DNA of 47,429 bases from Akkermansia muciniphila. Lineage in GTDB: Bacteria; Verrucomicrobiota; Verrucomicrobiia; Limisphaerales; BJHT01. The notes below the pieces were generated by a model, which did not search any database, was not told where the DNA came from, and saw only the letters and a list, made by a program, of their open reading frames with translations. The number at the start of each line of letters is the position of its first letter. Position 1 is the first letter of the stretch. The stretch spans positions 1 to 47,429 of the forward strand of contig CAMAUZ010000066.1 of the NCBI GenBank assembly GCA_945861535.1, given 5' to 3'. The position numbers and the translations under genes are program-made. Shown one piece after another: positions 21,140 to 23,871 of the stretch.

Positions 21140-21230
21140 CACCGAGGTCGCCCGTGGAGTGCGGCCGGCGTCGGCGGCCTGCTGTCCGTCTCTCTCCGTT
21201 CCCCCCAGACGCCAGACGCCAGACGCCATC

Positions 21231-22842
21231 ACCCATTTCCCTGCGTTTGACGGCAACGGCAACGTAACCGCGCTGGTCGCCGCCGATGGCAACGGCCTGT
21301 CCGCGGTTTATGAATACGACCCCTTCGGCAAAACCCACCGCGTCACCGCCACCGTGCGCCTCGGGTCGGATGGCTCCCAGATCACCCTCGGCACCGCCAC
21401 CTACGATCTCGCCGGCCATCCGGTCACCCAGACCGACGCCGCCGGCCAGGTCACCACCTTTGCCGAGAGCCACGACGCCGCTGGCCGCGTCACCCACACC
21501 ACCACCCAGCCCAACGGCGGCACCCGCATCGAGACCCACAACCTGGATGGAACCCTCGAACGCCTCACCGGCACCGCCGTCCACGGCGTCCGCTACGTCC
21601 ATGGGATTGATGGCAACAGTCCCTCCACCCAGACCATCCCCCTCCTCGCCAACGGCACCGACTCCGCCGAATGGACCAAATCCTACACCGACTACCTCGG
21701 CCGCAACTATCAGACCGTCACCGCCGACAACAGCACCACCACCTCCTACTACAACGCCCTCGGACAGCTTGCCAAACAGGTCGATCCCGATGGCGTCACC
21801 ACCCTCTACGCCTACAACGCCCTCGGGGAACTCGAGTACACCGCCGTGAACCTTGACCAGAATGGCGTCATGGACCTCGCCGGCACCGACCGCGTCACCC
21901 GCACCGTGCGCAGCGTCGGCGCGTCCAGCCGGTGGACGGGCGTGAATGTCCGCCGCACCGAAAAGCTGGGTCTGGAACACCGACGGCCAGGACACCCCCA
22001 CCCTCGCCAGCGTCAGCGAAACCTCCGTGGACGGCCTCCGTTCCCCGCAGGCCAGCTACGGTCTCACCAACACCAGCCAGCGCGTCTGTCTCGGGGAAGG
22101 CCAGTGCCTTACCACCAACACCGCCCCCGACGGCACCTACACCGTCACCGTCCAACAGGCCGGCCACGTCACCTCCGTCACCCGTTATTCCCCCAGCGCC
22201 CAGACCCTCTCCGCCACCACCTACACCTACGACGCCCACGGTCGCCGCTCCTCCGTCACCGACGCCCGCACCGGCACCACCGGGTACACCTACGACTCCG
22301 CCGACCGTGTCCTCTCCATCACCACCCCCGCCCCGGGGAGCGCAGGCGGCCCGCCTGCTCCGTCCGGCGGCTCGCCGGGCGGCCCTCAAACCACCACCAC
22401 CCTCTACGACACTCTCAGCCGCCCCTGGAAAACCATTCAGCCCGACGGCACCAGTGTCACCAACACCTACCATGCCACCGGCGAACGCCAGCGCACCTCC
22501 GGTTCCCGCACCTACCCCGTGGAATACACCTACGACCACGCCGGCCGCATGAAGACCATGAAAACCGGCGCAACTTCGCCAGTGACACCGGGGCCGCCCT
22601 CACCACCTGGAACTACTCCGCCCAGCGCGGCTTCCTCCTCTCCAAACAATACGCCGACAGCCAGGGGCCGACCTACACCTATACCGCCGCCGGACGCCTC
22701 GCCACCCGCACCTGGGCGCGCGGCATCACCACCTACTACGCCTACAACCCCGCCGGCGACCTCGCGTCCGTGAACTACGACGACAATCTCACCCCCGGCG
22801 TCACCCACACCTACGACCGCCGCGGCCGCCGCCTCACCCGAT
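21231..22842 (+). pseudogene. RHS repeat protein, internal fragment with two frameshifts
   Basis: About 535 codons of YD/RHS-repeat protein survive in three segments. Frame 1 (21231 to about 21962) contains HFPAFDGNGNVTALVAADGN and repeats such as YDLAGHPVTQTDAAGQVTTF and YNALGQLAKQVDPDGVTTLY. At 21963-21966 the frame changes: TRT.EK then needs a shift to read SWVWNTDGQDTPTLASVSET. Frame 2 runs to MKTMKT near 22566, where loss of one base (most simply a T giving KTWRNF) returns to frame 1 at RNFASDTGAALTTWNYSAQR. The last RHS residues are YDRRGRRLTR, after which a group II intron begins. There is no signal peptide, N-terminal domain or toxin tip. The gene is not functional as it stands. Confidence 0.9.
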
Positions 22843-23562
22843 GTAGGTAGGAGGCGGGTTTCACCCCGCCCTTTCCCACCCAAACCGGACTGGCGGTTCT
22901 CCCGCATCCGGCTTTCCGGTCAGTGGTCTCGCGTTGGACTGGCTCAGGCACTCGACGCGAGGCGCTCGAAGGCGTCGCACCAGCCGCGCAGTGGTTGCCC
23001 ACCCGCTCACCCCTTTCAGGGCGGTCCACTGGCAGATCCCAAACCCACGCGGCAGCCCGGTTTACCGGCGCATTCGGACGCAAAGCCTTGCGGCACTATC
23101 CGAACCCTTCCAGGAGCAGCTTGTGTCCAGCCCCACCACCACTTTCCTACGTCCCTTCGCTCCACGGTCGTTACCCGCTTCTCAGCTACTACGGACGCTC
23201 TGACCCCGACCGGCTCGTTTGTCGCCGCCAGCCGTGGTTCCCTGATTAACGCCACCAGAACTTCCGACCATTCCATCTCCAACCATCCACGGTTCTCCAC
23301 CAGCCGCACCCACTCCCTCAGCGCTGGCAGCTCTATTTCGTTCGGGCTTCGTCGGTCGCTCGAGGACTCGCCAGAACCGCAGACCGAATCGAGTTCACGT
23401 TGACCGCCACAATCGGCGGCCTTTGTTACGGGCTAGTCTTTCGCTTCCCGTTGCTCTCCACCCAGGGGTATCGCCCCGATGCAGTTACGTTCAGCTACTG
23501 GCCTTCAGTGTCAGCCAGACAGAGACTCGCACCCTGCTGTTCCAGTGCGCTCTCAGGCGCAC
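22843..23562 (-). ncRNA. ORF-less group II intron, antisense to the RHS fragment
   Basis: Read on the minus strand, about 720 nt begin with GTGCGCC (5' end at 23562; consensus GUGYG) and contain CAGGGTGCGAGTCTCTG, a stem-loop like the G-GGUGCRAGUC-CC element near the 5' end of many bacterial group II introns. Near the 3' end AAGCCGGATGCGGGAGAACC and then GCCAGTCCGGTTT (about 22884-22916) fold as domain V: the lower helix contains the catalytic AGC triad with the G-U pair, and the upper helix is capped by a GAGA-type loop. It is followed by a domain VI-like helix (GGGCGGGG...CCCGCC) and the 3' end CTCCTACCTAC. No reverse transcriptase is encoded. A 7-bp hairpin (GCGGGCG GGC CGCCCGC) lies just before the 5' end, as at class C insertion sites. 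The exact ends are uncertain by a few bases. Confidence 0.65.
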
Positions 23563-23637
23563 GAGCGCGGGCGGCCCGCCCGCAAGTCCCGGCGACGTCT
23601 CGGCACCCGCGGCGGCATGCCCGCGCACGCGCCCAGC

Positions 23638-23793
23638 GTAGCGCAGGTTTCCAAACCTGCTGTATCGCGGGGTGCTAAAACCGCTGTCGGTACGGTCGCC
23701 CGCAGCGTCCGGACTGGTCATACGCGCCCGAAACCCCGGGGCCGCCGCCGATTTGGAAATCGGCGATACAGCAGGTTTGGAAACCTGCGCTAC
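23638..23793. repeat. Interspersed inverted repeat with perfect 31-bp arms
   Basis: Arms at 23638-23668 and 23763-23793 are perfectly complementary over 31 bp (outer end GTAGCGCAGGTTTCCAAACC). Each arm contains its own palindrome GCAGGTTTCCAAACCTGC. The centre carries GCCGATTTGGAAATCGGC (about 23749-23766), the same hairpin as at 1107. It lies directly upstream of the tyrA stub. Confidence 0.95.
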
Positions 23794-23871
23794 GGGGGCG
23801 GTGCGCGGAAGTGCCCTCCCAACCCCCTTTATCGCTTCCATCCCTCCGCGCGCTTCCCCTACCGTCCGCCC

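Follow-up and report, generated by a model that had tools for sequence, protein, structure and literature searches.

A group II intron without a reverse transcriptase, adjoining a repeated palindrome and belonging to a dispersed lineage

The intron and its host site

The window analyzed here is a stretch of 47,429 nt, contig C66 of a 7.94-Mb assembly (G000; 96.6% complete), the minus strand of which carries a group II intron devoid of any protein gene. The intron occupies positions 22841-23562 (722 nt), beginning with GTGCGCC at 23562, where the original prediction had placed a GTGCG 5′ end, and ending in ...CTACAT at 22841. On one side it adjoins a palindrome (23563-23583; strand not assigned) and on the other a plus-strand RHS/YD-repeat gene (21159-22840), matched by RHS_repeat, which is frameshifted, truncated and antisense to the intron. 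The Rfam model for domains V and VI, RF00029, scores 42.7 bits at 22841-22916 on the minus strand, above its gathering score of 40 (E 3.6e-5 over the window), and nothing else in an Rfam scan of the 47-kb window exceeded gathering. The 3′ end at 22841, on which an intron-free paralogous site, RF00029 and the AT end of related introns agree, lies two bases beyond the one first proposed (22843).

The intron-free site is provided by a paralogous RHS gene of the same genome (L132, contig C122), which aligns to window positions 22384-22840 with 91% identity and stops at 22840, the last base before the intron. After the aligned part, L132 runs directly, by eye, into a palindrome like the one beginning at 23563 beyond the intron, and its RHS-like reading continues past that palindrome; on the far side of the intron, alignment found no homology between the window and L132. 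These flanks indicate a seamless insertion at the palindrome edge with no target duplication, the left flank being set by alignment and the right only by the 21-nt palindrome, which is itself repeated and hence the weaker side. Because the intron opposes the RHS gene, splicing could not restore that gene, and the predicted antisense position within an RHS pseudogene stands. The RHS gene itself contains another, similar palindrome (22338-22369), in open frame, so that the repeat also occupies coding sequence.

Nine open reading frame-less (ORF-less) copies, the window included, were aligned and folded with RNAalifold into a consensus of 186 pairs, 52 of which show changes on both sides, with domains I to VI in order. 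In the window, all on the minus strand, domain I spans 23241-23557, domain II 23203-23238 and domain III 23149-23198, followed by domain IV (22918-23147), which lacks a reverse transcriptase (RT) ORF. Domain V (22882-22914) has its AGC triad at 22913-22911, as foreseen, and domain VI (22843-22879) a bulged branch-point A at 22848, eight nt from the intron end. Scored against this consensus, which was derived from the same nine rows, the window has six non-standard pairs among 186 with letters, compared with 0/186 in G435c, 2/184 in G435a, 5/173 in G435g, 1/186 in G386, 4/184 in G404, 7/186 in LJ_bin-4696 and 0/150 in G455 (3′ part excluded); the decayed copy G435f has 34/177. RF00029 scores in scanned relatives were 51.2 (G435c) and 50.9 (G386), both of which pass, and 38.7 (G404), below gathering. 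The window intron is structurally complete, possessing six domains, the AGC triad, the bulged A and a pairing between exon-binding site 1 (EBS1) and intron-binding site 1 (IBS1). A circularly permuted group II intron, of the kind treated in PMC8637638, was set aside, the domain order in the window being normal.

Exon pairing and the palindromic target

The window EBS1 (GAGCG, 23357-23361, minus strand) pairs at all five positions with IBS1 (CGCTC, 23563-23567, minus strand), the last five nt of the 5′ exon. In a comparison of 28 introns (12 ORF-less and 16 RT-encoding, RT-deleted or cut-off), in which the last five nt of the exon were matched to one domain I loop, 25 gave a complete standard match, although they carry ten different IBS1 sequences among them, so that EBS1 co-varies with its target in the relatives. 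For the 21 introns left once duplicates were removed, the summed Watson-Crick match was 100, whereas 20,000 permutations averaged 82.4, peaked at 93 and were never as good. The three introns that match at four of five positions (G435f, G386 and G404) are all ORF-less.

A minimum-energy stem ending 3-5 nt upstream of the insertion was found at 9 of the 12 ORF-less sites, including that of the window, where a GC-rich stem ends 4 nt upstream and 1.5% of 134 flanking windows are equally stable. Of the others, the G435c and G435f sites fold differently and that of G404 yields none. Seven of the 12 site hairpins beat 95% of shuffles and, for nine, no more than 10% of flanking windows reach the same stability. 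The G404 copy (L157, minus-strand reading, bases before 564) sits in a 15-bp tandem repeat.

The window palindrome fits the pattern GAGCGCGGNCN{4,6}GNCCGC, which matches the G000 assembly 301 times (153 on one strand and 148 on the other); read backwards, the same pattern matches 15 times. Among the matches listed, many form inverted pairs ∼140 bp apart, and on contigs C50 and C17 other introns follow the same kind of palindrome. An inverted repeat at 23624-23807 of the window, with 61-nt arms that are 79% complementary, is made of GCAGGTTTGGAAACCTGC-type palindromes, a motif that recurs at at least 13 places in the genome among the matches listed.

A dispersed lineage lacking the reverse transcriptase

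When the window intron was searched in 384 genomes of its class, 51 were matched, mostly by domain V or domain III alone, and in G102 the match extended across the RT-less domain IV. A model of 93 positions of this domain (R1), built from the window, C6 and G102, detected 15 loci in seven of 320 genomes of the order, and two genomes in a sample of 387 from the phylum, G000 and G708, the latter from another class. A G334 locus missed by the 320-genome search was recovered in a later R1 search (E 2e-4). Scanning 84,980 species genomes for a motif returned nine stretches, eight of them known R1 loci (five in G435 and one each in G404, G386 and G455) and the ninth, in LJ_bin-4696, the locus of G708. 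The model matched all 14 ORF-less loci given to it and none of the RT-encoding introns, its best other score being 12 bits outside any intron.

The lineage comprises 17 loci, spread over nine genomes from two classes of a single phylum: seven in G435, two each in G000 and G102, and one each in G386, G404, G455, G481, G334 and G708. Both ends are present in eleven loci of five genomes (the window, all seven of G435, G386, G404 and G708); the ten apart from the window begin with GTGCGCC (nine) or GTGCACC (one) and end in AT, and two G435 copies have internal deletions. Both the covariance-model match at domains V and VI and copies with the same boundaries, on which the original prediction had staked its case, were therefore found. 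It underestimated the find, the intron belonging to a dispersed lineage of RT-less copies. A plasmid search gave one match, 37 nt of domain V in a Streptomyces RT intron, and a phage search and a pattern scan of IMG/VR gave none.

Pairwise identity among five ORF-less introns is 74-81%. A maximum-likelihood tree computed from the 5′ 400-510 nt, domain IV excluded, splits nine ORF-less rows from eleven RT-encoding, RT-deleted or cut-off rows with branch support 100/99; the ORF-less rows from G000, G435 and G455 thus group together and apart from the RT introns of their own genomes. Three G435 copies (L150, L151 and L153) show no difference over 730 nt and L152 is 99.86% identical, which points to recent spread.

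In place of the RT ORF, domain IV contains a lineage-specific hairpin (23072-23105, minus strand) with a covarying stem, a near-invariant inner GCC/GGC stem and, in the window, a GCAA loop, which is found in eight of the nine rows of the nine-copy alignment. Standard pairs occupy 89.8% of cells across 14 loci, in an alignment that was fitted to the model and leans towards structure. The main helix shows changes on both sides in eight of nine pairs (96.0% paired cells), the inner three-pair helix is nearly invariant (97.6%) and the first helix is weaker (75.9%). None of 500 shuffles reached any of these structure measures, and slid controls gave 24.8-40.1%.

Partner introns, possible mobilization and known systems

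RT-encoding relatives reside beside RT-less copies in several genomes. In G435 (86% complete) RVT_1 matches seven times, and four of these matches fall in introns that are nearly identical (98.9-99.75%). The four introns follow similar palindromes and have IBS1 CACTC, as do five of that genome's seven ORF-less copies. RVT_1 was detected in five of the nine carrier genomes (G000, G435, G455, G102 and G334, the last with one match), and a related RT-encoding intron is present in the same genome in G435, G455 and G102. In G000 it is truncated: the only RVT_1 gene found in the assembly, on contig C50 and not C66, keeps its RT domain, lacks the GIIM domain and has its end replaced by a palindromic element. 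The original prediction was thus right that the window intron has no RT of its own, whereas the search for a trans-acting RT in the same genome returned only this truncated gene, and the trans-supplied maturase it proposed is likely by virtue of the co-resident RT introns of relatives.

In the C50 intron of G000 (L030, 3878-5350) a ∼170-bp palindromic element, another copy of which stands at the 5′ end of the intron, truncates the RT gene, and contig C28 bears a relic RT intron (L028, 2331-3360) whose RT remnant contains what looks by eye like an inverted repeat. Contig C17 carries a second, different ORF-less group II intron at a palindrome of the same kind (L025, 3456-4140; RF02001 80.3 bits, RF00029 44 bits), whose start resembles those of class C introns. 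Parts of the order are rich in group II introns: G041, G097, G386 and G370 each have 15-19 RF00029 matches, many of them near the ends of contigs. An Acido-Lenti-1 small RNA match (36.1 bits; gathering score 37) lies ∼800 bp downstream of the RT intron in L108 (3193-3237).

The partner RTs match TIGR04416, with Pfam showing RVT_1 and GIIM only, and their closest PDB chains are 7uim, likewise IIC, and GsI-IIC. The target hairpin and these nearest solved RTs fit the class C suggestion of the original prediction, but in the proposed check with Rfam models of domains I to IV the best of them, RF02003, reached 20.6 bits in the window intron, below its threshold of 49. The same models gave no match up to E 0.1 in the RT-encoding relatives L178, L182 and L108 and therefore do not cover this group. 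Membership of class C is plausible but unproven.

Taken together, the window element is best explained, with a probability of roughly 0.8, as a structurally complete RT-less intron of an old non-autonomous lineage that would be mobilized in trans, by the RT of a related intron, at dispersed palindromes. It is envisaged that the intron RNA splices and reverse-splices with the RT/maturase of a related RT-encoding intron, and that the DNA target is found through EBS1-IBS1 pairing to the nucleotides following the palindrome hairpin, insertion occurring at a palindrome present in hundreds of copies. The domain IV hairpin would then probably serve as a handle or scaffold that keeps the RNA recognizable to a foreign RT.

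Several observations weigh against this interpretation. RVT_1 was not found in G386, G404, G481 or LJ_bin-4696, four of the nine carriers, although this is weak evidence because two of the four are only 76-82% complete. In G386, many of 17 RF00029 matches lie within 150 bases of a contig end; multi-copy introns break assemblies, so RT introns may have been lost there and the negative is again weak. The introns of G386 and G404 pair at four of five EBS1-IBS1 positions, and G404 has no target hairpin. The window hairpin, although present as predicted, is matched in stability by 19% of 300 shuffles, the stretch being so GC-rich. Finally, the folding energy of the whole intron is not unusual against shuffles (z -0.87) and that of domain IV is uninformative (z 0.06). 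With single-sequence energy no better than shuffles, the structural case rests on covariation and RF00029.

A rival reading is a private and recent ORF deletion from a local RT-encoding intron. RT-deleted relics are known in the relatives G319, G030 and G358, and G358, with a similar GTGCGC/GCGCAC start, is itself the nearest outside row of the tree (90/92). Domain IV of six of nine copies contains a readable LRGW, a motif also present in the RTs, either as a trace of the maturase domain or by chance, and tblastn without composition correction returned, besides noise, one match in the window intron (7e-4) that the profile search did not back. An RT profile nevertheless detects remnants in both deletion controls (G319, 3e-23; G030, 8e-6) and gives a best E of only 0.44, with no remnant, in the nine ORF-less introns; moreover, the same RT-less domain IV recurs across nine genomes and the nine copies tested form one clade. 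Recent loss is accordingly unlikely, and an ancient RT deletion is the likely origin of the lineage. RT-deleted derivatives that retain RT pieces (L096, 136-1010; L094; L106) represent usual ORF losses.

Whether the window copy itself still splices or moves is a separate matter, on which the odds appear even. The truncated RT as the only one found in G000, the relic state of several other introns there and the orientation opposing a pseudogene would suit a dead relic, and the window copy may be stranded for want of an intact RVT_1 gene. Its six broken pairs of 186, where the decayed G435f has 34 of 177, and its intact catalytic and exon-pairing parts speak against a relic, and an RT copy may be missing from an assembly that is 96.6% complete. 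A splicing-only element maintained by its host, as PMC4424553 portrays introns without intron-encoded proteins (IEPs), is very improbable, given copies at different palindromes, three identical copies in G435 and a window copy that opposes its gene.

If the explanation by an old, trans-mobilized lineage is extended, these introns could constitute a stable, obligately non-autonomous group II lineage, the ribozyme counterpart of short interspersed nuclear elements (SINEs) and miniature inverted-repeat transposable elements (MITEs), spanning families and two classes, with a domain IV RNA that recruits foreign RTs and an EBS1 retuned to the host palindrome; the evidence so far leaves this broader proposal evenly poised. 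A persistent RT-less clade would offer a natural model for how a self-sufficient retroelement gave way to many dependent introns served by a single shared protein, a step that PMC2882425 ties to the origin of the spliceosome. Such a lineage could escape pipelines that take the RT gene as their starting point, or that require a match to known models of domains I to IV.

According to PMC4424553, ORF-less group II introns are rare in bacteria and introns without IEPs are splicing-only, and PMC8919778 counts 888 of 13,041 introns without an IEP, its main text not mentioning Verrucomicrobi-. No account of the RT-less lineage was found in open-licence literature, most subscription papers lying outside that scope. 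The closest parallel is TeI3 of Thermosynechococcus elongatus, for which PMC2882425 describes 17 ORF-less introns with RT remnants that are mobilized by driver RTs. In TeI3, as in G435, many RT-less copies stand beside RT-encoding introns in one genome; in both systems EBS/IBS matches are good and ORF loss probably had a single origin. Trans mobilization, proposed here from sequence, was tested for TeI3 by mobility assays. Unlike TeI3, which has clear RT remnants and is described in one genome, the present lineage yields no remnant by profile search, occurs in nine genomes from two classes of one phylum, and bears its own conserved hairpin in domain IV.

Group IIC introns insert after terminator or attC motifs, as set out in PMC4424553, and resemble the lineage in the hairpin just upstream of most of its insertion sites and in the nearest solved RTs of its partners; they differ in that the lineage targets a dispersed palindrome (301 matches to the pattern) and in that the window intron falls below the Rfam threshold for domains I to IV. 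Insertion sequences that target repetitive extragenic palindromic (REP) elements likewise use repetitive palindromes, but act through transposases and leave direct repeats at the target, to judge from PMC1525189, whereas the window intron is a ribozyme without a duplication.
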